A stretch of 64,000 nt of DNA from NCBI GenBank assembly GCA_963402885.1, contig OY727102.1, positions 17,608,001 through 17,672,000 on the forward strand, written 5' to 3'. The notes beneath the pieces are model-generated. The model did no database searches. It worked only from the letters and a program-made list of their open reading frames with translations, and was not told where the DNA came from. Positions within the stretch are counted from its first letter, which is position 1. Every line of letters begins with the position of its first letter. The position numbers and the translations under genes are program-made. Source of the DNA: Antedon bifida (lineage: Eukaryota; Echinodermata; Crinoidea; Comatulida; Antedonidae). This document shows positions 15,707 through 63,709 of this stretch, piece after piece.

Positions 15707-16737
15707 ATGGCGAATTACTTGGTATGTTTTATTATTGTTATTATTTATAAAAAGTGAAGAAAATAATACTAAGTGTTGACATTTTCATAACCGTCAAAAG
15801 AGTATCTAACTAAAATGTATATATTTTAGTAAATTTGAAAAAACAAATAATTTTTAATAATGTAGTATGAATTTTATACTCTCCTTGGTTATGTATTTCG
15901 TTTCAGAACAAGCCTACCTGTTTTTGTTTGGGTTTTTTTACGTGTTTGTTTTATGTTTTATCCAGTTTTGTCTTGTATATGTGGTGAATTAAAAAAGTGG
16001 GTGAACAAAAAAAGAAAACTAACATAGGCCTAACAATATTTTTATTCCGTTTTTCTGGTTTTTTCACCATTGAACCCGAACTCACTGCTATTGTTTTTGT
16101 GAAGACAATACGGAGGATTGGGGTGGATTAGGTCCGAGGGCCTCACAAGTTACAATAACTGCTACCTTTTGAAATTATGCTGGATTTGGTTTTGTGAATG
16201 CGTTAACCTTCCACTTTGTTTAATGTTTCCCGTTGTATGTTTACTTTTCAGATGTACTTAATTGGATGTTGCTGTTTATTAATGAATGCTGTATCGATAC
16301 CAATAAACCAAAACAATAACAATATAGACGAACACAAACAGTTACGAAAGGATCGCAGTGCAAATGCTTTATTATTTGCCGCGAACAGGACATCTATTAA
16401 CAATTTACCCTTATTTGCACCTGTAAGTGGGTCGTCACCCGCCCCCTCCTGCCCAAGATCTTCGACTCCTGATGTGGGTAGCAGTATTGACGATGCTGCT
16501 GTGTGTCCCTGGTACAGCGTATTAAACATCGATGACAACCGAATACCACGAGTTCTATCAGAGAAAAACAGTAGCTGCACAACTTGTATTGGTCAGGGGG
16601 GTACATGCGAAGCAATCAAGTATAACGTGCCTGTTTTTAAACGAGTAAACAGTATGGACACTCAGGATAAGTACTATTATCAACAGACCTTTGAGGAAAT
16701 AGTTGTTGGGTTCGCCTGTGCAAGATCACGTAGTTAA
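15707..16737 (+). CDS. IL17: Interleukin-17-like cytokine A (divergent, knot disulfide altered)
   Basis: Two exons, 15707-15721 (MANYL, donor GTATGT) and 16252-16737 (acceptor TTTTCAG), joined in phase 0 to give about 166 residues. The joined N-terminus MANYLMYLIGCCCLLMNAVS is a good signal peptide. The IL-17 signature is clear: VCPWYSVLNIDDNRIPRVL, then SSCTTCIGQ, a KYNVP strand, and a C-terminal GFACARSRS. Compared with paralogs C to F, the first knot cysteine (ARC in D-F) is replaced, and at the C-terminal C-x-C one Cys aligns with Phe. A single disulfide therefore seems to be missing as a pair. An N-x-T sequon (NRT) lies in the propeptide region. It is expected to be a secreted, dimeric cytokine acting through IL-17 receptors. 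A family 2 MITE follows 19 bases after the stop. The exact exon 1 is inferred from frame and splice signals. Confidence 0.88.
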
Positions 16738-16755
16738 GACGTTAGGCTGCCTGTA

Positions 16756-16895
16756 TAAAGCTTGGTATCTATACTTCGCAAGTAGTTTGACCAATCACGT
16801 ATGATCATCCGAACTGCCGCTTGTGATTGGTCAAATCACTTGAAACGTTGTACGCCTACACACGTTGCGTTGCGTCTAATAGGGGATTAAGCTTT
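16756..16895. mobile_element. MITE family 2, just downstream of gene A
   Basis: TAAAGCTTGGTATC... to ...GGGGATTAAGCTTTA with the central TTGACCAATCAC / TTGTGATTGGTCAA arms. It starts 19 bases after the gene A stop, so it probably lies within its 3' UTR. Confidence 0.8.
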
Positions 16896-16939
16896 ACACA
16901 CCTTTAGTATTTAATATTTATTTTAGTGCACAATTACAA

Positions 16940-16945
16940 TAAATT
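16940..16945 (+). terminator. Candidate poly(A) signal of IL-17 gene A
   Basis: AATAAA in TTACAATAAATTG, about 200 bases after the stop codon. Confidence 0.35.
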
Positions 16946-16947
16946 GT

Positions 16948-17139
16948 TCATAGTTTTATATTATTTATTAGATAATTTATTCTTTTTACTGGGATAGCCT
17001 CAAAAGACTGTTCTTTCAGAGGGCCTAACACACCATTCTGGTGTCCCATTATGCCGTACATCGGCTTTACCTCCGATCTACGGATACAACCCATGCCTCT
17101 CACATGTTCCTTCACATCATGCCATACCGCTATCGTCAT
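16948..17139 (-). other. Unidentified protein-like open frame
   Basis: A 63-codon open frame containing WHDVKEHVRGMGCIRRSEVK and GHQNGVLGPLKEQSFE. Its composition is less AT-biased than random local frames, so it may be a relic of a transposon or of an exon. I do not recognise it. It lies downstream of gene A on the opposite strand, with no obvious splice partners. Confidence 0.2.
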
Positions 17140-17822
17140 AATTTACAGTTAGGGAGTTTTGTTTAAATTTGTACTTAACATTAATGTTTTGTGTGTGAAA
17201 ACAAAAATGAAGAAATTTACCGAGTGTGCTGTGTAAAATGTAGCCTAATTTAAGGCTTGTAAACCATGCATTTATTGTTAACAAAAGTATTTAAAGTTAC
17301 ACGTATAATCTGTGTTTTAATTGAATCTACTAGGACTATATAATATTGTTACTTCTTATAAGTTGAACGTGAAGTTTATTACAGTATAATATATCTATTG
17401 TGAATATAAAAATGTTAGTTTAAAGCACTCTGTAGAAAGTAGTATTATTTGCAATATGTGTTATTTATTATTTATTATGAGACATATATTTAATTATTTA
17501 AATAGGCTATTTTATTTATAATGGGGTCTTGGTGTATACATTATATAAAAAGATCTCAAATAAAAAAAAACACAAATTACGTCATTTGTATCAAATAACG
17601 TGATAATATCATGTAAGCATTTTTGTGCTGCTTTAATAATGTAGAATAGTATAATTAATGTGTAATTTAGTATTTATAATGCGAAATATGTAATTGTTAC
17701 TTATAGGACATACTTTAAAAAGTCAATATTTATTGTGCATACAAAGTATGATAGATATTCATAATAAAAAGTTTTGTGACAAAATGTTATGTTCTGAGCT
17801 TCTTCATTCTAATACTTAATAA

Positions 17823-18141
17823 TATATTGTCCCCCTGAAAAATAATTTTAAATATTCCATTTTAATGTAACATAATAGTTATCCACTTTGACCAAAAATT
17901 GGATCGAAAAAAAATGTATTTATCTGAAAAAATGTAATTTAAAGCAAAAAATGGTCAAATTGGCTGCCAGCCAATGGATTTTTGGTTGAATTTTACCATT
18001 TATTTTTTGTCAAGTGAAAACATGATTTTTTTCGGTTTTTTTTCTATTGAAGTGATTAACTTGATTAAAACTACAAAATAACATATTCAAAGTCTGATTT
18101 AACTAATCTTCATTTTTCATGTTTTTGGGGGACAATCTTTA
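17823..18141. mobile_element. MITE family 4, copy 1
   Basis: Begins ATATTGTCCCCCTGAAAAA and ends GTTTTTGGGGGACAATCTTT, an imperfect inverted pair. The interior (CCAAAAATTGGATCG, AAGTCTGATTTAACTAATC) is repeated in reverse orientation at 38527-38830. It ends next to the family 2 copy at 18143. Confidence 0.75.
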
Positions 18142-18142
18142 G

Positions 18143-18305
18143 GCTTCGTTTTCACTTGGACTCAACTCAACGAAAAAGGTGCAACGCAAGTAATTGGCCA
18201 ATTACGACGCGCGCGATGAGTCATCCGAACTGTCGCTTGTGATTAGTCGACTCACTTGCGTTGAGCTTACCTTGTTGCGTTGCGTCCAATCGGAACCAAG
18301 CTTTG
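18143..18305. mobile_element. MITE family 2 copy
   Basis: GGCTTCGTTTTCACTTGGAC to CCAATCGGAACCAAGCTTTG with GCAACGCAAGT and GTCGCTTGTGATTAGTCGAC arms. Confidence 0.75.
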
Positions 18306-18443
18306 TGTCGGTCACGTTATATACTTAAGGACGATGATACGCGCAAAGCAATATATGTCTATAACAAGAAACATATCATTTAAAGAGTGGAAATTTTGAG
18401 AATTCAATAAAAAGAAATACGGACATATATTAAGCAGTAGGTA

Positions 18444-18752: not shown

Positions 18753-18827
18753 TCGTGTACCATCATAATTTTAGGATTTGCATAGGCCTTAAATGAGCAA
18801 AGGCATTGTAATGCCTGGTTCCCACTA

Positions 18828-19033: not shown

Positions 19034-19078
19034 GACGTACGTAAGCGCACTGCCAATAATTTGAAAAATCACGACGTA

Positions 19079-20255: not shown

Positions 20256-21245
20256 ATGGTAAATGTTATATTTGTTTCATATTCTTTTGTAGACTAGAAT
20301 CACAAAGTTTTAATTCTGGCATAACTTTTATGTAGGCATACTGTGGCAGAATTCATCCATTGAATTCATTTTAGCGCCCATATTAAACCTATAGAAATCA
20401 GTTCGCACTCATTTTCATATCTTCCATGTACTTAGGTGATCCTTGCATCACATGTACACATCTCCCTCTTGAGCTATTTCTTGAAATACCGTAAATAAAG
20501 ACACTAGTATACACGAATTATACTTGATATAAATATTTAAAAATATTTATTTTATTTGTTTGGTATTCAGAAATTTCAGACAATAATCTTCGTATTGGTG
20601 ACATTGAAGAACATAATATCGCCATCTGTTGGCCACATTTCTGATCAGACGCCTGCGAATGGTCACCATGACGTAAACCATCACGATCCAAACCACACCC
20701 ATCATAACCACCACCACCGGCACCATCGTCACCGGCACCAGAAACAACATTCAACAACCCGACAACCGCTGACTGATCAAATTGCAGTATCTGATGTTGT
20801 GCACGAGAATGTAACGGCAAACGAACATGAAATACAAAATAATACTGTTAAAACGGTTCACCAATACTTCTACCGTGAGAGGCAACCAGAGCAGGTTCCG
20901 AGAAAACCTCTGTTCACACCACCACTTCGACCTCCTATAGAAGAGATTGGAGCACCAGATGTTTACACTCCGCTTAACTTGGGTACGATGTGTCCACACG
21001 TACATGTGACGTACACTGATACGCGTTCAATTCCGACCTCATTCGAACAAGCCGAGCTTCTTCTTTCGCATAATAACTGTATACATCCACACACAAATAA
21101 ACGGATTCCTGACCAGTTTTGCCTTCCAGTTAAATACAATGTACCTTACCTGTCAGACACAGGCAATGGTTCGCATGATATTGCTGAGTATGAACAGAAA
21201 TATAGAATGATGATTACGTCATTTGTTTGTCGGCGTCCGTCGTGA
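20256..21245 (+). CDS. IL17: Interleukin-17-like cytokine B, histidine-rich and divergent
   Basis: The main exon is 20571-21245 (acceptor TATTCAG). I propose exon 1 as just the start codon, 20256-20258, followed by GTAAAT, giving MKFQTIIFVLVTLKN as a signal peptide and about 225 residues. After it come a 29-residue stretch with 15 His, a basic/proline-rich spacer, and an IL-17-like domain: MCPHVHVTYTDTRSIPTSF, NNCIHPHT, PVKYNVPYL, and a C-terminal SFVCRRPS. KYNVP is shared with gene A. As in A, the first knot Cys and the first Cys of C-x-C are absent. RIP is RSIP here. Several N-x-T/S sequons are present (NVT, NNT, NHT, NGS). Same strand as A and C. The domain is weaker than in the other copies, and exon 1 is inferred; an alternative acceptor (AATTTCAG) lies nine bases later. 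Confidence 0.75.
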
Positions 21246-23200: not shown

Positions 23201-23204
23201 TAAT

Positions 23205-23625: not shown

Positions 23626-23626
23626 T

Positions 23627-26492: not shown

Positions 26493-26646
26493 TTAAGGTC
26501 TGTCTGCACTATCAAACTTTATGTGACAAAATAAATGTGATGTGCCCCTATATGGACATGATGATGTCATATCACTATCATATTTGGGCATATCACTACT
26601 ATATTTGGGCACATCACACTTTTTTGATAGTGTAGACAGAGCTTTA
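26493..26646. mobile_element. MITE family 1, copy 10
   Basis: TAAGGTCTGTCTGCACTATC to TGATAGTGTAGACAGAGCTTTA. The right inner part is shortened by about 12 bases. Confidence 0.85.
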
Positions 26647-28330: not shown

Positions 28331-28816
28331 ATGAAGTTACTCTCCATATGTGTTGTTCTTGGCCTGGTTTGCAACGCAATTGCAGGACCGTATAGTTTTA
28401 CCAATACTATACTGGAAACGAAATTCCGAGACCTCGAATGCAAAGAACCGTTGGAACAAACTCTTTATTCCCAGCTGGCTGAAGTGTTACGATTTGATCC
28501 AATCGACGACGGAATCAGCACGTATGCCTCCGATAAAGAAGAATGTCCAACAGATGCTACCACACTGTGCCCGTATCGTATGGAAAACATCGACGATCCG
28601 GATCGGATCCCATCAAGGGTGTCCGTAGCCAGGTGCATGTGTGACGAATGCCAGACTAAACGCGATTCCACTGCAGCTCTTTTGTCGTGTAAACCGATAT
28701 TGCGTATCACTACCGTGCTACGAAAGACAGGCAAATGTGAATCCGGGTTCTACACATATAAACCCGTTGATGAAATTATACCTGTGGCTTGTACTTGTTC
28801 CAGGCCTTCGAACTGA
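28331..28816 (+). CDS. IL17: Interleukin-17-like cytokine C (canonical)
   Basis: A single coding exon begins directly after an acceptor (GTCTTTCAG) with ATG and gives 161 residues. The signal peptide is MKLLSICVVLGLVCNAIAG. A pre-domain with Cys (LECKE) and an EECP motif is followed by the IL-17 core: LCPYRMENIDDPDRIPSRV, ARCMCDEC, LLSCKP and a final IPVACTCSRPS with the complete C-x-C. It is the least derived member here and aligns with animal IL-17 along the whole core. As in genes A and B, an intron lies just before the second part of the signal peptide; here exon 1 seems to be 5' UTR only, with a TATA box at 27923. Predicted to be a secreted homodimeric cytokine signalling through IL-17R/SEFIR proteins. 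An upstream in-frame ATG at 28310 lies in the intron and is not used. Confidence 0.94.
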   Translation: MKLLSICVVLGLVCNAIAGPYSFTNTILETKFRDLECKEPLEQTLYSQLAEVLRFDPIDDGISTYASDKEECPTDATTLCPYRMENIDDPDRIPSRVSVARCMCDECQTKRDSTAALLSCKPILRITTVLRKTGKCESGFYTYKPVDEIIPVACTCSRPSN

Positions 28817-31097: not shown

Positions 31098-31210
31098 TAA
31101 AGCTCTTTCTACACTATCAAACTTTATGTGAAAAAACATTTAATGTGCCCATACATAGACATGATGATGTCATATCACTACCATATTTGGGCATATCACT
31201 ACCATATCTG
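31098..31210. mobile_element. MITE family 1, copy 12, right end missing
   Basis: TAAAGCTCTTTCTACACTAT and the interior are present. The element stops at CACTACCATATCTGG. Confidence 0.8.
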
Positions 31211-31879
31211 GACCGTTTGTGCATAATACTTATGACGATTACAATCTCAGGAAACCAGGAGGTTTGTATGATAGAGACCCTAGATTACTTAAAAAAATAT
31301 TATTGAAAAATTGGTTTTCAAAATAATAATTCAAGTTTAACAGTACAAATCGCTATTAGGCTACAAAAGACCAATCCTTCCGTATTCTACCATAAATGAA
31401 TACATTGTAATGTCTAGAAAATTCAAAATCATAATTGATTCTCAGTGAATGTTTCGACCGAAAATTATAGTCAAAATTTCAGAGAAACTGGTTATTTAGG
31501 GCTATTCATAACCATGCATGATGAATTAAGTATCACCTGTTCAGATAAGTTACTTCTTTTACCTAAAGAGGGTCAAACCATCTTAAGAGCATCCTCTACC
31601 GAAATGAAAGTTAATATTGACTATAAGCAACAAGCATTTAGAATATCATATTCAACTTTTATCTCAATTTAAAATAAAATTTAAATTTAAAAATGCAAGT
31701 ACAATCGAAATTAATGTACTTTTTAGATGTGACATTAACTAAAATATGTTTGTCTCCCTCAACTGACTGCAGGAGCGAAATCTAATGACGATTTTAATAA
31801 CTTTTCGATTTTATGACGCGATATAATAATACTGCTGCTTCTGCTGCGCAGGCTAAAAAATAATAGCCGCGCTGTCGTT

Positions 31880-32440
31880 CAGTCAATCGTCAAATATTCA
31901 GCCGGTCAATCAGTCAATTTATATTCAGTCGGTCAGTCAGTTAACATTCAGTCGGTCAGTCAGTTAATTTATATTCAGTCGGTCAGTCAGTTAATTTATA
32001 TTCAGTCGGTCAGTCAGTTAATTTATATTCAGTCGGTCAGTCAGTTTATTTATATTCAGTCGGTCAGTCAGTTAATTTATATTCAGTCGGTCAGTCAGGC
32101 TATTGATATTCAGTCAGTCATTTGATATTCAGTCGGTCAGTCGTTTGATATTCAGTCGGTCAGTCAGTCATTTGATATTTAGTCTGTCAGTCAGGCATTA
32201 ATGTATCAGTCGGTCAGCCTTCAGTTAATATTCAGTCGGTCTGTCAGGGATTTGATATTCAGTCGGTCAGTCATTTGATATTCAGTCGGTCAGTCAGTTA
32301 ATATTCAGTCGGTCATTCAGGTAATATTCAGTCTGTCAGTCAGGTAATATTCAGTCTGTCAGTCACTTAATATTTAGTCGGTCAGTCAGTTAATATCCAG
32401 ACGGTCAGTCAGCTAATATTCAGTCGGTCAGTCAGTTAAA
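31880..32440. repeat. Tandem array, unit ATTCAGTCGGTCAGTCAGTT
   Basis: About 560 bases of 22-27-base units built from CAGTCGGTCAGTCAG plus a short AT spacer (TTAATTTAT or TTAAT). The left half is the most uniform. Unit-length differences come from the AT spacer. There are no unique spacers, so it is not a CRISPR. Confidence 0.9.
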
Positions 32441-32492
32441 TAAAGGAACTTTAATGTTAACGTTGTTTTATGTTTCCTGTTCTGTTTCATCA

Positions 32493-33418: not shown

Positions 33419-33589
33419 TAAAGCTCTATCTACATTATCAAACTTGTGTTGTCACAAAACAATGGGATGTGCCTGTATATGGACACGATGATGTCATATC
33501 ACTACCATATTTAAGCATACACCTACCATATTTGGGAATATCACTTTTTTTGTCAAACTAGGTTGATAGTGTAGACAGACAGAGCTTAA
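33419..33589. mobile_element. MITE family 1, copy 13
   Basis: TAAAGCTCTATCTACATTATC to GATAGTGTAGACAGACAGAG with a duplicated ACAG at the right end. Confidence 0.85.
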
Positions 33590-36549: not shown

Positions 36550-37505
36550 TTAACTTAATTGTTTCAAGTCACCGTCATCTGGTCTATTTGGTTGTGGTCT
36601 TACAGTTCGCTGGCACACACACGCTACTGGAATCTTTTCAGTGTATTGTTCATACTTAAACACATCACCTTCACATCCAACCATTCTCATTGCTGTCATT
36701 GAATACATTACTTCTTTGCACTGCAATGCTGACGTCTGCTTGTTGGTAAAAGGATCAATACATGTTGTACATGATGGTCGGCATCTTGCTTTCATGATTC
36801 TGGCTGGGATACGATCAGATTGATAGTCTTCGTAGTAATCAAAGGGACACAGACCAGACTCAGATAGACTGTAATCAGCTGCAAAGAAATATGATTATGA
36901 AATATGAACATGGTAATTACTTGATGTTTTACCGGAACTAACTAAGTTTTTTTTCCTACACTATTCAACAGTGAGGTATTTCATAGATTCCGGATATTTA
37001 AAATACTCAATTATACCATAAGTATTTCTATTTGAAACATTATCTTGGGTAATGTAAAGCTCTGTCTACTCTATCAAACTAGTTTAACAAAAAAAAGTGT
37101 GATGTGCCCAAATATGGTAATGATATGCCTAAATATGGTAGTGTTATAACATCATCATGTCCATATATGGGCACATCACATTTTGTTTGTCACATAAAAT
37201 TTGATAGTGTAGACAGAGCTTTACATATACTTACTTGGTACCCGATTGTATGGGCATTCCTTATCAAGAATTGCATGTTCTGTGTTGCCAGATTCATCGA
37301 GTAACAGACTAGTATCAAATGCATGGACAGCAACAATAGTTGTTTGTGGATAGTAAAGCGTTCGTTCTATTGAAGATGTATTCGAACAAGTACTGTAGGG
37401 TCCGTCAGTGGAAGAGGTTTTGCTTAGCCTGGACGATAGAGGGTTACCGCTCACCGTCACGTCGTAGAATACGAGAGCACATAATAGCAACTTCAAAATA
37501 CGCAT
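36550..37505 (-). CDS. IL17: Interleukin-17-like cytokine D
   Basis: Exons 37505-37235 and 36878-36550 (minus) join in phase 1 to give 199 residues. The signal peptide is MRILKLLLCALVFYDVTVSG, followed by NPLSSRLSK. The pre-domain has YSTCSNTSS and VHAFDTSLL. KECPYN precedes the intron. Exon 2 holds the core: GLCPFDYYEDYQSDRIPARI, ARCRPSCTTCIDPFT, ALQCKEV, VGCEG and PVACVCQRT with an intact C-x-C, plus a short Pro/Asp tail. It is a tandem paralog of E: the first 55 or so residues of exon 2 are identical while exon 1 is much more diverged. A family 1 MITE fills part of the intron and starts ten bases from the donor. Upstream, GAGATTTCCC at 37587-37596 (GGGAAATCTC on the gene strand) resembles a kB site and is conserved in E. 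Secreted cytokine by homology. Confidence 0.94.
37055..37223. mobile_element. MITE family 1, copy 14, in the gene D intron
   Basis: Full-length copy, TAAAGCTCTGTCTACTCTAT to TGATAGTGTAGACAGAGCTTTA. The rest of this intron aligns with the intron of gene E, which lacks the element, so the insertion is younger than the D/E duplication. Confidence 0.9.
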
Positions 37506-40209: not shown

Positions 40210-41098
40210 CTACAGTGGTGGCAGACCACTATCATCTGGTCTAGGTGCTTGTGGTCTTACAGTTCGCTGGCACACACATGCTACTGGAAACTCTTCAGTG
40301 TATTGTTCATACTTAAACACATCACCTTCACATCCAACCTTTTTCATTACCGTCATTGTGTACGTTACTTCTTTGCACTGCAATGCCGACGTCTGCTTGT
40401 TGGTAAAAGGATCAATGCATGTTGTACATGATGGCCGGCATCTTGCTTTCATGATTCTGGCTGGGATACGATCAGATTGATAGTCTTCGTAGTAATCAAA
40501 GGGACACAGACCAGACTCAGATAGACTGTAATCAGCTGTAAAAAAAGACAATATCAAAATAAGAATATGTTACCTTATTCACGATTATTTAACCGGAACC
40601 AATTCAGTTCCCTGCACTTTACTTGAACAGTGAATTATTTTAAAGATTCTAGAGATACCCAAAGTACACTATTTACTCTATCTGGTTCGTAATGTATAGA
40701 TAAGCTATCTCCATGGATACATTGTTTTGGAATTTAACCGTACAATTAAAATTATCTAATTTTATAGTTCCATGGTTTAGGTAGTATAATGTAAAATAAA
40801 ACTTACTGGGTGCCTGATTGTATGGGCATTCCCTATTCGGAATGTTACTCTGTGTGTTGTAGTCACCGGGCAGCAACAAACTAACATCAAACGCATGTAC
40901 AGGAATAATAGTTGTTTGTGGATAGTACATTGTTCGCTCCAGTGAGGTAGTATTCGAACAAGTACTGTAAGGTCCGTCTTGATTCGCAGTCGAAGAAATT
41001 GATCGTCTTAGTCTAGATGATAACGGGTTACCGCTCACCATTACCATGTCGAATACCGAAGTACAAAATACCAGCTTGAGAATATCCATTGAATTCAT
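40210..41098 (-). CDS. IL17: Interleukin-17-like cytokine E
   Basis: Exons 41098-40807 and 40535-40210 (minus) join in phase 1 to give 205 residues. The first ATG is at 41098 and yields MNSMDILKLVFCTSVFDMVM as signal peptide, ending VSG|NP. The mature part begins NPLSSRLRR; RLRR fits a furin site. Pre-domain YSTCSNTTS and VHAFDVSLL, then RECPYN. The exon 2 core GLCPFDYYEDYQSDRIPARI, ARCRPSCTTCIDPFT and PVACVCQRT is nearly the same as in D; early differences are silent, later ones change residues (M to T, A to V, RM to KK, KI to EF). The C-terminal tail differs (SGLPPL). A minus-strand TATAAA is at 41239-41234, and an acceptor-like TGTACAG just above the first ATG suggests a 5' UTR intron. Secreted cytokine by homology. 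Confidence 0.94.
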
Positions 41099-42037: not shown

Positions 42038-42662
42038 AAGTAGTAGTAGTGGTAGTAGTACGGGTAGTGGTTGTGGTGGCGGTGGTGGTTTGGAAGTTAT
42101 AGTGGTAGTGGCAGTGGAAGTATTACGGTAGTGGTAGTGGTATTGGTATTGGTAATGGTGGTGATGGTTTAGGTGGTGGCAGTGTTAGTAGTAGTGGTAT
42201 TGGTTGTGGTGGTGGTGATGGTTTAGGTATTGGTGGTGGCATTGGTAGTAGTAGTGGTAGTAGTGGTATGGTAGTGGTGGTGGTGATATTGGTAGTGGTG
42301 GTATTGGTAGTGGTGGTGGTGATGGTTTAGGTGGTGGTGGCAGTGGTAGTAGTAGTGGAATTGGTAGTGGTGGTGGTGATATTGGTAGTGGTGATGATTT
42401 TTTGTGGTGGTGGTGGTGGCAGTGGTAGTAGTAGTAGTAGTAGTAGTGGTGGTATTAATAGTAGTGATGATTTTTTGTGGTGGTGGTGGTGGCAGTGGTA
42501 GTAGTAGCAGTAGTAGTGGTGGTATTGGTAGTGGTGGTGGTGATGGTTTAGGTGGTGTTGGTTGCAGTGGTAGTAGTAGTAGTAGTGGAATTGGTAGTGC
42601 TGGTGGTAATATTGGTAGTGGTGATGATTTTTGTGGTGGTGGTGGCAGTGGTAGTAATAGTA
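42038..42662. repeat. GGT/AGT trinucleotide array
   Basis: About 620 bases of GGT, AGT and GAT triplets with higher-order units such as GGTGATGGTTTAGGTGGTGG and GATGATTTTTTGTGGTGG. It opens long Gly/Ser (+) and His/Thr or Pro/Leu (-) frames that I treat as artefacts of the repeat. Confidence 0.9.
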
Positions 42663-43208
42663 GTTTAAAATATTGGTGGTTTGTTTTGTTCATCCCACCA
42701 TTATTCATCAATTTCAAACCTAAACTTATTTTCATATATTATAATTATTCTAACATTCATATAGTAAAAATTGTTATAGAAAACAATTTATAATATATTT
42801 AAACAGAGTAATATTTTATTTATAGAAATAAATGTATTTATACAATAATGCAGGTTTCTTGAAAATCAAAAATTAACACTTTTGCTTTTTTATGCAATCT
42901 TTTTAGATTGATATAGCTATAAAATGCAGATTTAGTAATGAATAACATTTCTTTCTATTTTGACTATAGAAGTGTTTTGTATATTTCTTATGAAATTGTT
43001 AATATTATAAGAAAAAAATGTTTGAAGTTAGCCGAAAACTGGGTTCCACTCACTTAATCCGATTAATTCCATTATGCAAAATTCTATTTATATCTTCTTT
43101 AAATAAAAGCAAAGTCTTTATTCAGGCCTTTTGAGTTATTTTTAAAGTAATAAACTGTTTTCGGTTCTTACACCCACACTTATTCTGTTTTGACATTGGA
43201 AGACAAAA

Positions 43209-43552: not shown

Positions 43553-44890
43553 ACCTTATTTTTATAAGGTCGAGCACACTGTAGTCTATAAGAACACACT
43601 CTTTATAAGAGCATATTTATTATAAGAACACACTATAAAAACATAAGAACACAGACTTTAGAATTAGGAACTCACTTTTAAGAACACACTTTATATATAC
43701 TCTTATATAAGAACGCATGTTATAAGACCCTAGTACTTCTTATAATGATATTAATTTATAGGAATACACACTTATATAAGAACACACTCTTTTTATAAGA
43801 ACACATTTTATAAGAATATATATTTATATAAGGACAAACTTTATAATATAATAATTGTTTAATGTACATTTTATAAGAACACGTCACCTTATAAGAATAT
43901 ACTATAAGCAGTTACATATATATATATATATATATATTATTGTAGGAACATACTATAAAGAACATAGACTTTAGAATTAAGAAGCCACTTTTAAGAATAC
44001 ACTTTATATATACTCTTATATAAGAACGTACGTTATAAGACCCTATTTTTTATAATAACATGACTTTATAAGAATACACTTTATAAGAACACATTATATT
44101 TATAAGAACACATCTTATAAGAATATACATTTATATAAGGACAAACTTTATAATATAATAATTGTTTAATTTACCTTTTATAAGAACACACTATTTTTTA
44201 TAACAACAAACCTTATAAGAACATACTTTATATAAAATATACTCTATATACGAACCCACGTTATAAGAACCTACTTTTTATAAAAACATACTTTAGGCTA
44301 TAAGAATACATCTTATAAAAGAATAAACATTTATATAAGGACAAACTGTATAATAATAATAATTTTTTAATATAAATTTTATAAGAAAACATTCTTTTTA
44401 TAAGAACATACCATATAAGAATATACTTAAAGAATAGTTATATGAACACACTTTATAATAAGAATTTATAAGAACATAAATTATAATTTTATAAACACAC
44501 ATTATAAACAATTAGCAATCATTTACAAGGAAATACTTTGTGTATAGGCTATTATATAAGAACACACTTTAATAAGAAAACATTTTGTGAAAGCATACTT
44601 TAATAAGAATATATAATATAAGAACACTTTTTATAAGAACATACTTAAAAAGAATATGTAATATAAGAACAAATTTTATAAGAACATACTTAATAAGAAT
44701 ATGTAATATAAGAATAGTTTTTATAAGAACATACTTAATAAGAATATATAATATAAGAACACATTTTATAAGATCATACTTAATTAGAATATATAATATA
44801 AGAACAATTTTTATAAGAAAATACGTAATAAGAATGTATAATATAAGAACAATTTATATAAGAACATACTTATATATATTAAATAAATAT
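43553..44890. repeat. TTATAAGAACACACTT minisatellite, about 1.3 kb
   Basis: More than 60 degenerate units of the type (T)TATAAGAACAYACTT. Higher-order copying is visible: the block with GACTTTAGAATTA through TATATACTCTTATATAAGAA occurs near 43650 and again near 43968. The right half uses a longer unit with CTTAATAAGAATATATAATA. Confidence 0.9.
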
Positions 44891-45785
44891 ATTTAAAAAC
44901 TCAACAGACTTTATAAGGAGGACATACTGACATTTTGAAAATCAGTACTAATACGTTACTGAAATTGCAATCCGGTCATCAAAAAAAAAAGATTAAATAA
45001 GGTAATATAAAATAAATAAAGTTCATTTCTAAACTGACCTTATAACCCCATAGAGAGGATCTAAAAATAACCAATGAGTAAAACATTAAAAAGACCCATA
45101 TATAATAAAAGAAACAAACCGGACAAGACACACCCGTTTTACGTCAGTAGCTCGTTTTGCCACCATTTCCAATTAGCGACAAAGGATGCTAATAAATCTT
45201 TGTTTTGTGTTGAAGCCTCTGTTTTCGCAATTTAAAAACGGGATCCTAAAAATTAAACTATAGAAATATATATGAAACATACACATACATGCATGGGGTT
45301 GTATCAAAATGACCGTAATTGTTGGTCTCCTGGTAAGATTTTAAACTACATTTCGTTTGGGGTGGGGTGGAATGGGACTGTTGTTGGGCTCGGGTTGGGA
45401 TTGCGTTTTTGGCGGGCTTTGTACTTGGAAGGTTTTACTCTGTTGAGGCGGGTATTTATTTTAGTTATATATAAAATACGTTTATTATTACATTTAGTTG
45501 AAGTAATTCGATATGAGATTTTATACGTTGTAAATACATGTTAGCTATATAAAGTTAGTTTAGTATGCTTTCACATATATTTAACTTAAAAACAGTTGAA
45601 TGAAAAATGTCGTGTAGTTATAAATGTTATGTTTTTCTTGCAATCAAAAAGTTTGATCTTGGTTTTGCAGGATAGACCTAACACACATTTAACTGAACTT
45701 AGAGAGAACCACGTCAGCCAATCATAACAACTAAGTCATTTCCTAAATCGAAGGATGATGGTACGCTATTTCGTCATTAAATCTA

Positions 45786-45931
45786 AAGATTTGTTCCCAC
45801 TAGGACGCAACACAAGGACGTAAACGAAACGCAATCGTGTTGACCAATGACAAGCGACAGTTTGAATAATCCATCGCTTGTGATTGGTCAACTCACTTAC
45901 GTTGCGTTACGTCCTTGTGTTGCGTCTCTAA
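45786..45931. mobile_element. MITE family 2, tandem cluster copy 1
   Basis: AAAGATTTGTTCCCACTAGG to GTTGCGTCTCTAAAGC with full arms around CAGTTTGAATAATCCATCGC. Confidence 0.85.
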
Positions 45932-46112
45932 AGCTTGGTTCCCACTAGAACGTAACGCAAGGACGTAAACGCAACGCAAGCGTTTTAACCAATGACAAGC
46001 GAAGTTATAGACAGTTAGCAATCACAAGCGAATAAGCCATCGCTTGTGATTGGTCAATTCACTTGTGTTGCGTTACGTCCTTGTGTTGCGTCGCTAGTGG
46101 GAACCACGCTTA
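45931..46112. mobile_element. MITE family 2, tandem cluster copy 2
   Basis: TAAAGCTTGGTTCCCACTAG to CTAGTGGGAACCACGCTTA. It shares its left end with the right end of the previous copy. Confidence 0.85.
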
Positions 46113-47344: not shown

Positions 47345-47968
47345 TTAATTTTCTCTGCCTTGATAATTGATTGACCCTGTGTTTGTATTCACACGTCTGC
47401 TACACATACACGCAACTTGGACCTCTTCGGTGTACTCTTTATAATGGAACGCGTTACTATCACAACTGACGCGTTTCAACGCAGTAAACGTGTACGTAAC
47501 GGGCTGGCATCGTAACGTAGAAGAAGCGGCATTTGTGAACGGATCGATACACGTACTGCACGGCAAGCACCTAGCCTTCGTTATTGTAGCTGGAATACGA
47601 TCTTTTTTATATTCAGTGTAAAATTCGAATGGACATAATCCTGCGTCTTGAATGCTGGATGACGATGGTGATTGACCATACGGGCAAGATTGCGTCGTAG
47701 TTGCGTTCGAGTGATTTGAACTTACGTCATTTGCAAGTAGGGTATAATCAAATGCGTGAAGACGGAGAATGTCCGTATTTGGATAAAAGTTGATTGACTG
47801 CGCATCAGAAGATACATTGTGACAAGTTGTGGATGCGTTTGCATTGTACATAGAGTTATTGCTGTCTGCACGTTTTGAACGCAGTGGATTTGCATATGAA
47901 GATGTGAAGTACAACAGCATTATACAGGTAGTTATGCTAATTATAGTTGCTCCTGATTTTCCGTGCAT
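47345..47968 (-). CDS. IL17: Interleukin-17-like cytokine F, single coding exon
   Basis: One uninterrupted coding exon of 207 residues from the ATG at 47968; an acceptor-like ATTTACACAG lies just above it. The signal peptide ends near LLYFTSSYA, followed by NPLRSKR (furin-type RSKR), matching NPLSSR of D and E. The propeptide region carries five N-x-S/T sequons (NNS, NAS, NVS, NHS, NAT). The pre-domain STTCHNVSS and LHAFDYTLL, then SCPYGQ, align with D and E. Core: GLCPFEFYTEYKKDRIPATI, ARCLPCSTCIDPFT, LRCQPV, VSCDSN and QVACMCSRR with an intact C-x-C. D and E have a phase-1 intron between the ECPYN and LCPF motifs; F has none, and codes SSSSIQDAG across that place. Expected to be secreted and heavily N-glycosylated. 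Nothing broken is visible. Confidence 0.94.
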   Translation of the reverse strand: MHGKSGATIISITTCIMLLYFTSSYANPLRSKRADSNNSMYNANASTTCHNVSSDAQSINFYPNTDILRLHAFDYTLLANDVSSNHSNATTTQSCPYGQSPSSSSIQDAGLCPFEFYTEYKKDRIPATITKARCLPCSTCIDPFTNAASSTLRCQPVTYTFTALKRVSCDSNAFHYKEYTEEVQVACMCSRRVNTNTGSINYQGREN

Positions 47969-50725: not shown

Positions 50726-51036
50726 TGCCTGTTTTTCTTTATCGTTTTGCTTATTTTATTTTGTATCTCCATTGAGATCCTTCCACCCCCAAAGTATTGT
50801 AATTTTAACTTTTGGATTGTCATAGTAATCTTTAACAATATCGTGTTCATCTGCAGCCCATTCTCATACGGTGTCATGTCCAACAAAAAACTGTGACATG
50901 ACTGTCAGAAGACATAGTAACTGAAAGAATAGTAAGAAAGGTTGTAGTCAGCAGACAAGGAACTGCAGGTGCTGTTTATAGTTATTAGACATTGTACGAG
51001 AATCGGGTATAATCTGGGCCTTTGTGGATAAATAAT

Positions 51037-51428
51037 GTTGAATTTGTCATCATCATCATCAGTTTCATCATCATCATCAGTGTCATCGCCATCATGCATC
51101 ATCATAATCATCATCATCATCACAAATCATCATCACAAATCATCATCAACAGTGTCATCGCCATCATGCATCATCACAAATCATCATCACAAATTATCAT
51201 CACAAATTATCATCACAAATTATCATCACAGATTATCATCCGTGTCATCATCATCATCATCATCAGTGTCATCATTATCCTCATCATCATATCATCATCT
51301 CGAATCATCATCACAAATCATCAGTGTCATCACAATCAGTGTAATCATTATCCTTATCATCATTATCATCATCATCACAAATCATCATCATCATCATCAT
51401 CACATCAACCTCACCATCGTCATTATTC
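51037..51428. repeat. (TCA)n / ATCATCACAAATT array
   Basis: About 390 bases of TCA triplets with a higher-order 15-base unit ATCATCACAAATTATC. It opens Ser- and His/Ile-rich frames that are not genes. Confidence 0.9.
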
Positions 51429-52902
51429 AATGTATCACTATACTCACGCAATGTTTTAGACTTCTGCATTTTGCTTTTTTTGTCTTTTATCTTCGTCATA
51501 GTTTTTTACAATAACAAGGGTATGCAGATTAGAATTTTTGTAATTGTTACCATCGATTAAAAAACACTGTGCATAAAAATTCCCTTTGAATGGTTTTACA
51601 GAGTATTTCCAACTGTGTTCCTTCAGCGTGGGTAGATTTTCAGCTTAGAAAACCACAAGGAAATCATTTCTAGCATAACATTTTGAAAACAGGAACGTGT
51701 TGGCGTGTGCCTAATCGAGGATGGTTCCTATAGGAACAACAAACACTGATCCTCATGTTTTGACTTGCGCTAAATTTATGATAATAATCATAATAATAAT
51801 AATAATTTTACAATGAAGATGGAAGATGATTGTGCTCCACAAACGTATACAAAATCTTTTTCTACAATATTATTTTTCTTGAACTTGCACTGCTGTAAGT
51901 TTGGACTAGATTAGCAAATAATTTAATTCTCAAACGGGTTGGTCATAGTTAACCCCCCAACCCCCCTCACCCCCTACCCCATCCTCCTCAGTTTACGAAT
52001 GATTACATCCAAACCAATACGGATGCCATTTTAAATACAAAGGCAATTATTCCACTTACAACACTCAAGAGTTATTCAGAGTGTTTACTTAAGGGTTAAG
52101 TTGCTTATTTAGTTGTTGGATTGGTTGATAGAAATATCATACTGAACTACAATAATATCTATAATAATATATATGTGAGTAATGATTGTTCGCATGACAT
52201 GAGATGACAACCAATACAATAGAACGGTTGGTTGATTGGTATTTATAGGGTTGAGTAAATATTATGCGTTTAAATTTGTGCGGCCGATTTTTTTAAAAAT
52301 CGGCCGTAAGCGATACTAACCTACTAAAGGACGTGATCGCATTAAAAAAAAATATTGTAGGCTTACAGTATATTGTTATTGTTTTTTTTTAAATTTATTA
52401 TTTTAAATTTGTTTTCTTCATTACTCATAAAAAAAAAGTGACATTATTCTAAATCATTTTATTTAAAATTTCACATTTAAACATAGAATTCCCCTAAAAA
52501 AGAAATTGTATTATTATCTTTACTAAATAGTTTAAATTAATAACTTGTGATTCTTAATTTACTCGAAGAATCCATAAGTACGCACATTTCCGTTATTTAA
52601 GTTATTTGACACAGAGGGGACTAATTTTAAAAATAATGTCACTAAAATTATCCCTATTGTTTCCTCTTTCCTTTTCTAGGTACCTGTGTTTTTATATATT
52701 TGTTAAAAATATGCACTGTCATTCGTAAACCCGAATTTGTAATAAGTTGAATTATGCCCACGCATTTAAAAGAACATCAGCTTTCAATATAAAACCAAAG
52801 AGTAACTTTAACTGGAGAGAGTGATCACATAATATGACGTCACACACACTATAGATTATTATAAAACATGATCGTTCGAATGATTTTCTGAAAATTATAG
52901 AG

Positions 52903-53049
52903 TAAAGCTCTGTCTGCACTATCAAACTAGTTTAACAAAAGAAGTGTGATGTGCCCAAATATGGTAGTGATATGACATCATTATGTCCATATATGGACAC
53001 ATCATTTTTTTTTTGTCACATAAAGTTTGATAGTGTAGACAGAGCTTAA
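52903..53049. mobile_element. MITE family 1, copy 15
   Basis: TAAAGCTCTGTCTGCACTAT to TGATAGTGTAGACAGAGCTTA. Confidence 0.85.
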
Positions 53050-54365
53050 TAGTAATCGATACTAAAATGTAGTGATAGATGGGTCCGAAACCTTTCTTCT
53101 TCAAACAAATTGAATTTTTTTGTGTCTGAAACATGCCTTAATATAGGTATTATTTTTTTAATTTTACCCTGATCTGCCTCTTATATAAATGATTGATTGA
53201 TTTTACAACCCTTCTGATTGTTGGCCAGTCGTGTATCCCCTGTAAATATGATTGCATAACAATATGACATTTACCTTTAATAAAATTTGAAAGTTTTGTT
53301 TAATTTTGTAAAATACTATCATGAGGTTGTTAAGATAGAGAAAATTGTTAGTTACAATAGTAACAACATTCAGCAAAAAATGAAAAGTTTGTTCATGAGA
53401 TATTCCATGATATTGTGATTTCGTGTTTTAAACCGAATTGTTTGATTTATATTAACGAAACCAATTTTACTATATATATATATTAATATATATTAGTAAT
53501 ATCAATATTGTATACACAGTTAATTTAAATATTTATTAGGCCTATAGTAATATAAAGGAAATAGTAAAAAGTAAATCTCAAATTATCAAAAACAGTCAAA
53601 ATTACTCAGTTTGCATGGGGTGACACTTTTCCGGGAGATCCCCATTAATATTGTTGAATATTGTTCTCAATCTAAGTATCTACTTCAATATAATGTATTA
53701 ACTATAACGTATACGCTACTGTATAATAGATAGAACACAATCGAAACTCTAATAAACAAATAAGCATCTAATTACGCTTTAGATGCAATCACGCTTTATG
53801 ACAATAAATTATTATTTGTTTGACAAGATGTTTCAGTGTGAACACTTGTTAAATAAAGTCTTGAATGTAAGGTGCACTCAAAAAGTTAATTCATAAGATG
53901 ACATAATTTTTACAATTTGAAACTTTAATATGACAAGGTTGTAACAATCACGAGGTTTGTGTCAATTGTCTTTACAACCGAAATACACATAAAGAATACC
54001 GCTTAAGTACCAATATAAGGAAATATTGTTATCAATGAATATATATATATATATATATTCACACCTTTCTTTCTATAGATATCTTTTTATAGAAATAATA
54101 TTCTGAATTAAATTTTCATTTTGGGCCAGCATTATGATTATTGCGCTTATACCGTATGCCACATGTAGCATGTGACCAATTACATTGATCATAGACCTAT
54201 TGACTTCCACACTTTCTAGTACGCTATCGCATCTCGACTCATATAATAGAACAGCTCAAATGTACATACATATGCTTCACATCAAACAGCAGTAATAGCA
54301 GAAACATTGTAATTATGTTTAGTACTCCAAAAGTTGCCGGGAGCATGGCAGAATTCTTTTAAAAC

Positions 54366-55140: not shown

Positions 55141-55299
55141 TGCTATGTCTAGATCATCGAACTTTATGTGACAAAAATGATGTGCCCATATATGGATATG
55201 ATGATGTCATATCACTACCATATTTAACCATATATTTAGACACATCAGTCATCACACTTTTTTCTGTCAAACGAGTTTGATAGTGTAGACAGATCTTTG
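55141..55299. mobile_element. MITE family 1, copy 16
   Basis: The left end is decayed (TGCTATGTCTAGATCATCGA). The right end is GATAGTGTAGACAGATCTTT. The interior is typical. Confidence 0.8.
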
Positions 55300-55661: not shown

Positions 55662-55806
55662 TAAAGCTCCGTCTACACTATCAAACGTTATGTGATAATG
55701 TGATGTGCCCATATGATGTCATATCACTACCATATTTGGGAATATCACTACCATATTTGGGCACATCACACTTTTTGTCAAACTTTGATAGTGTAGATAG
55801 AGCTTA
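55662..55806. mobile_element. MITE family 1, copy 17
   Basis: TAAAGCTCCGTCTACACTAT to TGATAGTGTAGATAGAGCTTA. Confidence 0.85.
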
Positions 55807-56375: not shown

Positions 56376-57229
56376 ATGTGTAGGCCTAGTATATAAATAT
56401 ACAATAATAAGTGATGGTCGTAGACAAATGAATGTCAAAATCTATTGTTCCATTCAAGTGCACTTATAATATGCAAGGTTACGTTTATTTATGTTCAAGT
56501 GTTGGTAAAAGCAGAGCAGCTTTTGAGTGGCTATGACGTCACTGTACATGGGGGTATCCCTCGATGCCCCATCATTTGTTGACATGCTAGTTTGTCACCA
56601 TAACTCTGTAATGTATTGTACACAATTTTAGTTAGGTGAACCCTATACATAATAATATACGGTTTACCCAGTGAAGATATGGTTTATATAAATAAATACT
56701 GAAACAGATAAGAGGCAATTTAGGTGGTGCAACCGAATTTAATTTAAGGATGCTGTTGATTGGTGAGTCATCATGATTTATAAAGGGTGTGTTGTATTCA
56801 TATATAGTAAATGACTATATTTCGGAAAATAAAAACAAAGCTAAACCAGGCGCGAACTAGAATCACCAGGCTCCGCGTAAAAACCAGATAAGTTACAGTA
56901 TTATATTGGTGACGGAGTTTTTTTTTGTGGTGAACAGTTCCAATGTTTTCTCCTTTTCCACATCCGTTTTCTCGATATGCAACACGCTTTTTTTATCGGC
57001 ACTATAAAGAGCTCCACTGCGTCTGACGTAGGTTTGTTTAACCAAATGGAACATGGGAAATACACATTGTATCAGCTTGCGATTTTACCCTAAAAATATG
57101 GATTTATTATTATTAATATTCTGTGGTCATATCCTATTGGAAATATCATATTCCCTACATTTTATTTCTACATATGTCTATTCATACACAAATAAAAAAA
57201 CACGCAACAGTTAACGGCTGTCGCTTGTT

Positions 57230-57428
57230 AAGCTTGGTTTCCACTAGGACGCAACACAAGGACGTAGACGCAATGCAAGGACGTAGACGCAATGCAAGGA
57301 CGTAGACGTAACGCAAGTGAGTTAACCAATCACAAGCGACAGTTCGAATAATCCATCGCCTGTGATTGGTCCAATCTCTTACGTTGCGTTACGCCGTTGT
57401 GTTGGGTCTGTAGTAGGAAACAAGCATT
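57230..57428. mobile_element. MITE family 2 with an internal 18-base tandem
   Basis: TAAGCTTGGTTTCCACTAGG at the left; GTAGTAGGAAACAAGCATTA at the right. CAAGGACGTAGACGCAATG is repeated in tandem in the left arm, so the hairpin is asymmetric. Confidence 0.8.
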
Positions 57429-57854: not shown

Positions 57855-58004
57855 TAAGCTTGGTTCCCACTAGGACGCAACGCAAGGACGTATAGACGCA
57901 ACGCAAGCGAGTTGACCAATCACACGCGACTGTTCGAAAAATCGATCTCTTGTGATTGGTCAAATCATGTTGCGTTACGTCCTAGTGGGAACCACCAAGC
58001 TTTA
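57855..58004. mobile_element. MITE family 2 copy
   Basis: TTAAGCTTGGTTCCCACTAG to TAGTGGGAACCACCAAGCTTTA with full arms. Confidence 0.85.
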
Positions 58005-60539: not shown

Positions 60540-61090
60540 CATCATATACTTAATTTCATTCTGGAATGTCTTGTCACCATTGTATTATTATACCACTTAT
60601 ATACATATTTAAGCAAATGTATTAATATACCTTCTCTAACTAATATTCTTTGATAGCATCATTTTACTATTAATATACAATATTATACTTAATGTCATTT
60701 TAGAATATCCGTGTAACCATTATTATCAGACAACTTCAATAGTAATCCTATGTATGTTATGTATTGACATACCTATCTAACTAATATTAGTTCTTTGGTA
60801 TTTGAGTAGGCCTAGTACTTCGTACTAATATACATCATTAATGTAGAATACAATATCTTTGTCACGATTGTATTAAAATACCACTTCAATAATCGTATTT
60901 GAAATAATTTATGCAAATTCATTAGCATAATTAATAGTAATATTATTTTGCATCATATTTATAATTTCTTTGAATGTCCATTATTACCATTCCACTTCTA
61001 AAATCTTTAAAATATTTAAAAAAATATTATTAACATACCTATCTAACCAATATAATATTTAATGTAGCATTATTTAGTGTTTGTTTGACA
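60540..61090. repeat. Degenerate tandem repeat, period about 140 bases, at least four units
   Basis: Landmarks (C/T)AT-x-x-x-GAAT(G/A)TC, ACCATTGTATTATTATACCA and ACATACCTATCTAACTAATA recur at about 60558, 60697, 60845 and 60970 with substitutions and small indels. Confidence 0.65.
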
Positions 61091-61917
61091 AAAGAATACA
61101 ATTAAATCAAATAACGTTTGAATTATTAATTACATACTATCATTTGAATTTGCATAAATGTAATTTACATAATTTACAATAATAATAATATTAATTATTT
61201 ACGTTTATTACACACCTGCTGAGGAAATCCTTGATATTTGAACCGTTCATTATTTTGCACTATTGAACGATGAACGGTACTATTGACCATTCAGCTTCAA
61301 TTTTCTGCAACGCGAGGTTTGTGAAAAATCACTTTTTACCCCGCGTCCAAAATTGCAACGCTACTTTTGAAAGGCCTTGGTTCCCAGACCAGATGGATAT
61401 TGAATACAGTTGGTGTGTTATAATAAAAACATAATGTTTTATTTTCTTTGATTGAGAGAATATTTTATTCGGCAATTTAAACCCATGAAATATTCTCACC
61501 ATTCAACATTCATTATTTTTATGCTAAAAAAACAGAAAACTGTTTTACATTGTTTCCTTTTTTGGAAACTGTTTTGATACAAAACAACTTTTACAATATC
61601 TAGAACAGGTTTATATACTGTTGTTGGTGGCGCTGTTGTTTTAATTTTTGAAGATGCTTCATTATAAAATAAGAACAATTTATTACTTATGCACATTGTT
61701 AAAACCACATTTAACAAAAGTTAAAGTACAGTAAATAAACCATGAACTAGAGTCTTGTTATACGTACGTTACTAACAGATTTTCAAAATCTCAGTTTTTT
61801 TTTTATATTTCAAATTGAAATAATCCTTATAATAATAATCATAATAATTAATAAATAAATATATATGTATATATAATTTTTAACATAAAGATTGAGAAAT
61901 AGCAATAATGTTGAAAT

Positions 61918-61942
61918 AATCTTTATAATAATATAATAATTG

Positions 61943-61976
<34 letters not shown>
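61918..61976. repeat. (AT)n microsatellite and short flanking duplication
   Basis: An AT dinucleotide run. The surrounding block TTGAAATAATC(C/T)TTATAATA and ATTTGAGAAATAGC(A/G)ATA occurs twice (about 61814-61908 and 61911-62010). Confidence 0.8.
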
Positions 61977-61980
<4 letters not shown>

Positions 61981-62760
61981 AACGTAAAATTTGAGAAATA
62001 GCGATACTGTTGGGATATAATACAATGACAGATAAGACTTAAGGAACAAGCAAAGTAAGAAACGATAAAATTAAAGGAGTAACATTAATAAACCCCGTAA
62101 TCAAATAAGCACCATTGCGTTATTATTGGTTATCGGCCTGGTTAGTTTAGGAAACACTCAATTTATCATAATCATAATGTAACATTATGTTATATTATCC
62201 CAATGCTTTTCATAAAAAATGTAAAAATGTTATGAAATGTATAATACCATTCCAATGAATTAATATCACATTTGTAATTTTAGTAGGAAAAATAATCCTT
62301 AAAATTTTTTTTTTAAAGTTAAAATTGAATGTAGTATATATTTTCAAGGTGATATGTATATAATATAGATTATAATATAGATTATAATAAATATAATTTA
62401 TAAATAATAATTAATTTTGAACGGTTTCATCAATATTGCATAACATTAGATTGGTCAGCTGCTGGCATAAACACATCTGGCCAATTAACTACCTAAAGCC
62501 ATACTAAATTATCATCGAGTTGGTCAAAAATTAAAAAGTGACAATTATAAGCGAAAGGGTTAAACCCAAACATATGAATTTAAGATATTCACGGTTGAAA
62601 GCCCATTGCATCTTAAATGTAAAAACTATAATAAATTTCATATAGTAAAATAACGTTGGTGGTGTCTGAAGCTGCTAAAACTTAAACTAACTTAAAATGG
62701 AATTACTTTATTTAAACATAAAATAAATTAATATACTTATTATGATTCGACATTATTTGA

Positions 62761-63709
62761 TCAACAATGTGAGTTTTTGCATCTTTTCCATGTCTTGCCG
62801 TTGTTTGCGACACACTGGCAGCCGACTGATACGTTTTCTTTGCGCATTTCAAACCATGAAAGGCTTTCGTCAATCCTGTCAGCATAAAATAACATACGCA
62901 CCTCATGATAGATTTCTTGACACCTTCCTGGACATCCATGTATCACACATTGGTCGCATTCACAAACCACGTTGTCAACTAACATCGGAATACGTTGTTC
63001 GTTTTTTAAACTGACTATCGTTGACTTGCAGTTCCGTTTTTCTTGTTCGAATCCTTCTTTGGTTTGTTTGAAGATTTGAACGTCAGCTGAAAATACACAA
63101 AACCGATATATATATATATATATTATAGTTTTTTGATCATTATATTTTTATTGTGTGTTTTTTCTCTCTGCGTCAGTGAATAACGTTATCAAAACTAAGA
63201 TGGCCTATTCAAGGTTTGATTTTATTCATCTTATCGTTCCTGTTAGGTAAATCAACGACGTAGCAGAGCGAGTTGGCCAATCACAAGCGGCAGTTCGAAT
63301 AATCCATCGCCTGTGATTGGTCAAACTACTTGCGTTGTGCTTACGTCCTTGCTTTTAGTTCTAATATAGGAATTAAACTTCATATGTTAAACGTTAGAAA
63401 TACTTACAACATTTTCTATATTTAGACGTGGTATTTGTAGTACGTTGTGTGTCACTATTGTTCGGTGGTTGGTAACTAATAACATAATCATTTAGGTGTC
63501 TCGTTGAATTGGCTAAGATAACAGTACTCATTGTAAATATAATCATTAAAATAGTGGCAGTCTGAAATTTAAAGAAAAATGTAATTTTTAATGTTTTCTA
63601 GGCCTACATATTTTGCTTTATTAAGTTTTATTAACAGCACCAAACTACCCAACTACGTCACTGCCACGTTCACAATTTGGTAGGCATAATTACTATAATA
63701 TACAAACAT
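62761..63709 (-). CDS. IL17: Interleukin-17-like cytokine G
   Basis: Two exons are clear on the minus strand: 63561-63408 and 63086-62761, joined in phase 1 (T|CT), together 159 residues. A strong acceptor (AATTTCAG) before 63561 implies another upstream exon; I propose 63709-63704 (Met-Phe, donor GTATAT), giving MFTATILMIIFTMSTVILA as signal peptide. If that is wrong, the start is the Met at 63546. The core reads CKSTIVSLKNEQRIPMLV, VVCECDQC, GCPGRC and VGCQCVAN with an intact C-x-C, plus a C-terminal tail with two further Cys (RCKNSHC). The CP(W/F/Y) motif is reduced to CKS. The intron is at the same phase and begins exon 2 with CTGA, as in D and E. It holds a family 2 MITE. A kB site and a TGACGTCA lie upstream. 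Confidence 0.82.
63246..63382. mobile_element. MITE family 2, in the gene G intron, ends decayed
   Basis: GAGTTGGCCAATCACAAGCG and CTGTGATTGGTCAAACTACT arms with AATAATCCATCGC between them. The outer terminal repeats are poor. Confidence 0.7.

Follow-up and report, generated by a model that had tools for sequence, protein, structure and literature searches.

A tandem cluster of at least eight predicted IL-17 family genes in the crinoid Antedon bifida, with one gene pair that may have undergone exon-limited gene conversion

Do the putatively secreted proteins encoded side by side in a 64 kb stretch of the genome of the crinoid Antedon bifida (C15:17608001-17672000, the whole of which we call the window) form one cluster of IL-17 cytokine genes, and how did its members come to differ so unevenly? 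An earlier note on this DNA had placed seven genes with the IL-17 knot pattern next to one another, three on the plus strand followed by four on the minus strand, and all seven were found where it had put them: A, B and C on the plus strand and D, E, F and G on the minus strand, between positions 15707 and 63709 (Table 1). The count of seven in the window stood, the end of the cluster at 63709 did not. A search of the genome (315.6 Mb, 27 contigs) with the Pfam family PF06083 revealed an eighth gene, H, 3.6 kb past the end of the window (C15:17675585-17676305), and a ninth, K, on another chromosome (C10). Eight genes lie within 52.6 kb, measured from window position 15707 to the first known base of H. 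We read this as a crinoid locus with a tandem array of no fewer than eight cytokine genes of the IL-17 family, which very probably arose by repeated local duplication.

Extent of the cluster and family membership

The genome-wide PF06083 search returned seven places, namely A, C, D, E, F, H and K; it missed B and G and therefore undercounts, so that the nine IL-17 genes known in total, eight of them clustered, are a lower bound. Genome searches with the single proteins C, G and K returned no further IL-17 gene, and a scan with a profile of our own detected no further IL-17 exon in the window, in the 20 kb downstream or in the 10 kb upstream.

Run on the core exons, PF06083 scored above its curated cut-off of 24 bits in eight of the nine genes (A, C, D, E, F, G, H and K), with E-values of 4.9e-9 for A, 3.1e-14 for C, 1.1e-15 for D, 6.5e-16 for E, 3.8e-16 for F and 6.4e-6 for G. 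Six of the seven genes in the window are among these, and the case that the earlier note had named against itself, in which most of the seven find no match, did not arise. Our own profile was built from the eight cluster cores, B included and K not included. Across 2429 frames from the window, its flanks and the K locus, all eight cluster cores scored at or below 6.3e-29 and K was found at 2.8e-7, whilst the next match reached only 0.42 and the best score of the reversed-sequence control was 0.53; this gap implies that the cluster is not a product of chance. Against the PDB the same profile matched IL-25, IL-17A and IL-17F at 6.6e-8 to 3.7e-5 in 25 of the 27 listed sequences, the other two being PTTH (0.004) and RIFIN (0.35). 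Searches of the PDB with F and B as single sequences, and an NCBIfam scan, gave nothing useful, and a tree of the nine cores, which had long branches and support at none of its six inner branches, was not used.

The membership of B, the most divergent gene, was weighed by its fold, and it was the sole gene folded. When given an alignment of seven rows made from the window cores, AlphaFold produced a model with a predicted local distance difference test score (pLDDT) of 86.1. Foldseek compared this model with the PDB and returned 344 matches at E<=10, ten of them at <=0.001; IL-17A/F chains rank first, and the best 50 of the 344 are all IL-17A, IL-17F, IL-17AF or IL-25 entries. The listed matches have template modelling (TM) scores to the query of 0.69-0.75 at 13-18% identity. 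Several observations speak against counting B in: it falls under the Pfam cut-off (E 0.022, 15.6 bits vs 24), folding from its single sequence failed (pLDDT 44.6), the Foldseek E-values are modest (3.1e-4 to 2e-3), and the fold may in part have been imposed by the alignment with its neighbours. Our own profile, which matches B as well, was built with B in it. We regard the modelled fold as strong, but not fully independent, evidence that B belongs to the IL-17 family.

Uneven divergence: the D/E pair and the knot cysteines

Identity between cores ranges from 88% (D/E) down to 12% (B/G), a spread that the earlier note had already described. Its reading of the near-identity of D and E as a young duplication fared less well, since the near-identity is confined to exon 2, and the remainder of the two genes looks old. 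In this core exon D and E share 91.7% nucleotide identity (synonymous divergence, dS, 0.18; nonsynonymous divergence, dN, 0.06; core proteins 88% identical), with two synonymous changes and no replacement in the first 45 codons. Exon 1 shares 73.8% (dS 0.82, dN 0.28), and the intron 56.3%, or 64.9% without a 169-bp insert in D that resembles a miniature inverted-repeat transposable element (MITE). Synonymous change differs between the two exons (P=3.4e-5, Fisher's test). The longest identical run between the genes spans 103 columns, a length reached in 0 of 10000 column permutations; this permutation test ignores selection, and the synonymous test therefore weighs more. What is found is a tract of high identity at neutral sites, flanked by diverged homologous sequence, as gene conversion between tandem duplicates would leave. 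The best reading is that D and E descend from an old duplication and that the core exon was later homogenised by gene conversion, as the contrast between their exons suggests.

Two other explanations have to be set against this. Were D and E a young tandem duplicate, with an exon 1 evolving fast under positive or relaxed selection, the 91.7% DNA identity and 88% protein identity of the cores would be accounted for, but divergence is just as marked at the synonymous positions in exon 1 (dS 0.82) and along the intron (65% without the insert), where selection acting on the protein would not produce it, and we consider such an origin highly unlikely. Alternatively, exon 2 could be held identical at the DNA level by constraint, for example by an RNA structure or a regulatory element, and the edges of identity do coincide with the exon, which also counts against gene conversion as a random tract need not end there. 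The core of F, however, is saturated at synonymous sites in comparison with both D and E (proportion of synonymous differences, pS, 0.84 and 0.83), so that such sites can change and a general constraint is unlikely. Conversion of the core exon remains our preferred explanation for the pair.

A second division within the cluster concerns the cysteines of the knot. Cysteines 10, 38, 52 and 87 (F core numbering) are invariant in the eight aligned cluster cores and are present in K too. C, D, E, F, G and K have both Cys32 and Cys85; A, B and H have neither, and all three carry Phe at position 85. A has an additional core cysteine (35) outside the six, whilst B and H have four cysteines in total. 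From the human structures we take the pairs 32-85 and 38-87 to be the two chordate disulfides, the four cysteines of which are complete in six of the nine genes (C, D, E, F, G and K). In the alignment of our profile with the PDB sequences, the pair 10-52 replaces two serines of human IL-17, and passages of the sea urchin study (PMC5457136) likewise describe cysteines where vertebrates have two serines. On the presumed pairing, the extra invertebrate pair would be retained in A, B and H, and one of the chordate pairs would be missing. As they are without both cysteines of one presumed canonical disulfide, two structural classes would occur in one cluster. If the two sites were independent, the chance that the same three of nine genes were hit at both would be 1 in 84; the joint loss of Cys32 and Cys85 would be explained equally well if A, B and H go back to one common ancestor.

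The reduced knot also bears on whether all of these genes are immune cytokines. Part of the cluster could have decayed, or could serve a non-immune role, for example in development like the related hormone PTTH, with only some of the genes acting as cytokines. A, B and H are without two knot cysteines, B is barely alignable, our own profile also matches PTTH (0.004), and IL-17 in C. elegans acts in neurons. Set against this, the open frames and N-terminal leaders are kept, and both presumed disulfide partners are gone together with Phe at the second site in three of three genes, which random decay hardly gives. We think it unlikely that decay or a non-immune role explains part of the cluster, and the cluster as a whole is real and well preserved.

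Gene models, repeats and surroundings

Gene models were drawn from stop-to-stop frames and from reading both strands, with GT-AG introns in A, D, E and G. All seven predicted models in the window read through to a stop. The coding parts of C and F need no intron, and B has a weak GT-AG intron. A phase-1 intron just before the core is common to D, E, G and H and is not found in A, B, C or F, and K has a phase-2 intron within its core. Tiny first coding exons are predicted in A (MANYL) and G (MF), and less surely in B (M). A hydrophobic N-terminal stretch is present in nine of nine models (10-residue Kyte-Doolittle values of 2.0 to 3.2), as would be expected of the secreted proteins described in the earlier note. 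Furin-like motifs occur shortly after the leader in E (RLRR) and F (RSKR), and D has none there. These models also have weak points: all splice sites are predictions from DNA alone, the one-codon first exon of B is weak, the start assigned to C is tentative, the model of H is without a start exon, and the leaders, including that of H, were judged by hydrophobicity alone.

Table 1 Positions of the predicted IL-17 genes and associated features in the window
Feature	Position	Strand	Description
Gene A	15707..16737	+	Predicted mini exon 1 15707-15721 (MANYL), exon 2 16252-16737; 166 amino acids
Gene B	20256..21245	+	Candidate exon 1 20256-20258 (M only), exon 2 20571-21245; 225 amino acids
Gene C	28331..28816	+	One coding exon right after a splice-acceptor-like CAG; 161 amino acids; six knot cysteines
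Gene D	36550..37505	-	Exon 1 37505-37235, phase-1 intron, core exon 36878-36550; 199 amino acids
Proposed conversion tract (D core exon)	36550..36878	-	91.7% identical to E 40210-40535
MITE-like element	37055..37223	.	169 bp, short terminal inverted repeats; in intron of D
Gene E	40210..41098	-	Exon 1 41098-40807, phase-1 intron, core exon 40535-40210; 205 amino acids
Gene F	47345..47968	-	Single coding exon; 207 amino acids; RSKR furin-like motif; six knot cysteines
Gene G	62761..63709	-	Predicted mini exon 63709-63704 (MF), exon 2 63561-63408; 161 amino acids
Gene G core	63086-62761	-	Core exon after phase-1 intron
Palindromic NF-kappaB-like site	63840..63850	.	131 bp upstream of ATG of G

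Ahead of its IL-17 core, B carries a histidine-rich stretch (20658-20750) that could bind metal; such a stretch is unusual for a cytokine. Further copies of the MITE-like family lie at 26495-26625, 31132-31227, 33456-33551, 52946-53052, 55169-55264 and 55681-55776. A second repeat family, an imperfect palindrome with CCAATCACAAGC, occurs at 63254-63363 (intron 2 of G) and, between genes, at 45782-46096, 57226-57412 and 57893-57967, with a copy recognised by eye just behind A (16780-16890). Minisatellite or triplet-type arrays between the genes (44555-44914, 42110-42690, 31845-32460 and 51032-51460) give rise to long spurious open frames.

Several exons of a neighbouring gene lie on the minus strand at 3634-7216, one with a UvrD helicase match under the cut-off (1e-4), and a C-terminal PCNA-binding-like motif is present; we presume that this may be PARI/PARPBP. 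Just upstream of the window (locus L003, 5689-9514) a WD40 exon lies on the minus strand and RRM exons on the plus strand, one of the latter above and one below the Pfam cut-off, and these neighbours are useful for synteny.

The mitochondrial contig of the assembly (15,844 bp) was read by eye against the proteins of other animals, and AAA at Asn, AGA/AGG at Ser and ATA at Ile places correspond to the echinoderm code. The readings of AAA and AGA speak against a lophotrochozoan or ascidian origin. Read in the same way along the cox1 strand, the gene order is cox1, cox2, atp6, cox3, nad3, nad4, nad4L, nad5, nad6 (opposite) and cob, with nad1 and nad2 inverted relative to that strand. The composition of the cox1 strand (46.7% T, 26.4% A, 11.4% C, 15.4% G) is close to that given for the crinoid Florometra in the part of PMC7748595 used here (44.9 T, 26.9 A, 12 C, 16.1 G). 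A work in the reference list of that paper concerns, by its title, an nad4L rearrangement unique within the crinoids, and PMC3121625 ascribes a GT-rich coding strand to crinoids. The inverted nad1 and nad2 would also suit a brittle star, but the T-rich composition and the position of nad4L favour a crinoid.

Regulation, proposed function and relation to known IL-17 systems

Matches to an NF-kappaB-like (kB-like) pattern, GGGRNNYYCC, are frequent around the IL-17 genes. The window contains 16 kB-like strand matches vs a mean of 2.0 and a maximum of 10 in 100 dinucleotide shuffles. Counted as distinct places, 13 occur in 83.9 kb of IL-17 loci (eight in the window, three in L001 and two in L004) vs three in 99.6 kb of ten control loci (P=0.004, post hoc), which include L002 just behind the cluster and four loci with SEFIR exons, giving a density about 5x higher at the IL-17 loci. 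Taken by itself, the window has eight places in 64 kb (P=0.025). The sites do not resemble repeat copies. Besides the palindromic site upstream of G (Table 1), others lie roughly 0.6 to 1 kb ahead of D, E and K; the 1 kb preceding A, B, C or F contains no kB-like site, and the AP-1 and C/EBP patterns were found in none of the upstream stretches of the genes. Tempering a regulatory interpretation, the kB-like pattern was one of four motifs counted and was chosen post hoc, and the site at 63840 alone is promoter-proximal.

On the receptor side, four exons of the genome match the SEFIR domain in Pfam, one on C14, one on C8 and two on C16. A match to IL-17RA/IL-17RB in the PDB was found in addition for the C14 exon and for one C16 exon, whilst the C8 exon and the other C16 exon have the Pfam match alone. 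The two C16 exons (L010 4132-4953 and L011 4153-4974) lie 32 kb apart and, compared by eye, differ in 3 of 273 residues; they probably reflect a receptor gene duplicated recently in a genome whose ligand cluster is old.

The product of each gene would be secreted, form a cystine-knot dimer and bind SEFIR receptors, and SEFIR signalling may in turn drive defence genes in epithelium or coelomocytes, as reported for two sea urchin IL-17 subfamilies. Some genes of the cluster may be switched on through NF-kappaB sites, and gene conversion may have homogenised the core exon of D and E as their N-terminal parts grew different. The immune role of the cluster is inferred from its family.

Expansion of IL-17 is known in several marine invertebrates, as the earlier note had said, and we compare the cluster with passages of two surveys, on the sea urchin (Buckley et al. 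2017, PMC5457136) and on mussels (Saco et al. 2021, PMC8353272). In those of the former, sea urchin IL-17 genes lie mostly in tandem arrays, one of which holds eight SpIL17-1 genes and SpIL17-10a in 59.8 kb, subfamilies share about 33% identity, there are two receptors, and two subfamilies are induced by bacteria in the larval gut epithelium (PMC5457136). The crinoid genes resemble these in their tandem array, one to three exons, shared cysteine framework and few receptors, and their mini first exons are like those of SpIL17-1 (Met and Glu) and SpIL17-4 (five residues or Met only) (PMC5457136). They differ in number and spread, with 35 sea urchin genes on nine scaffolds vs nine here (a lower bound), eight of them in 52.6 kb, and in the way in which A, B and H have lost cysteines, as SpIL17 subfamilies 3 and 9 are described without both C-terminal cysteines (PMC5457136). 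Also unlike the sea urchin arrays, as far as those passages describe them, the near-identical pair here, D and E, is near-identical in one exon only.

The passages of the mussel survey report tandem arrays of the same or different isoforms in mussel, scallop, octopus, sea urchin and hemichordate (PMC8353272). Mussel IL-17 and the crinoid cluster have tandem repetition and a CPW-type motif in common; most mussel isoforms have 6-8 cysteines, whilst isoforms 18 and 21 have the four conserved ones, with two chordate bonds possible (PMC8353272). Unlike these four-cysteine isoforms, as described there, A, B and H are without one chordate-conserved pair and still have the extra invertebrate one. Human IL-17A/F and IL-25 resemble B in predicted fold (TM 0.69-0.75), and the cores here match them by profile as well, but they have Ser where these cores have Cys10 and Cys52, and share 13-18% identity with B. 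To our knowledge, IL17A and IL17F are the sole human genes of the family that adjoin one another.

Arrays of mixed IL-17 subfamilies have been described before in sea urchins, in molluscs and in a hemichordate; what appears new is the crinoid lineage. The passages of the mussel survey that hold its species table list no crinoid or ophiuroid (PMC8353272), the main text of a brittle star genome paper (PMC11959729) contains no IL-17 or interleukin term, and among the papers listed on echinoderm, brittle star, sea star and crinoid IL-17, mostly open literature and taken by title and start of abstract, none describes crinoid IL-17. The cluster seems undescribed in crinoids so far.

Taken together, the observations allow a reading of the whole locus that is possible, and that we offer tentatively. 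This would be an old, largely undispersed echinoderm cluster, in which a six-cysteine knot stands beside the reduced knot of A, B and H, exon-limited conversion keeps the receptor-binding core constant as N-termini with their furin-like sites diverge, and NF-kappaB sites across the region serve the cluster together. The reduced knot would then have dropped a disulfide that chordates kept, and kept one that chordates dropped.

Crinoids branch as sister to all other living echinoderms. The IL-17 surveys considered here cover echinoids and asteroids, and a sea cucumber study is listed as well; the compact crinoid cluster can serve as an outgroup in deciding which IL-17 subfamilies are ancient. 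Within it, the D/E pair would offer a clean example of a cytokine whose signalling core evolves under another regime than its N-terminal part.

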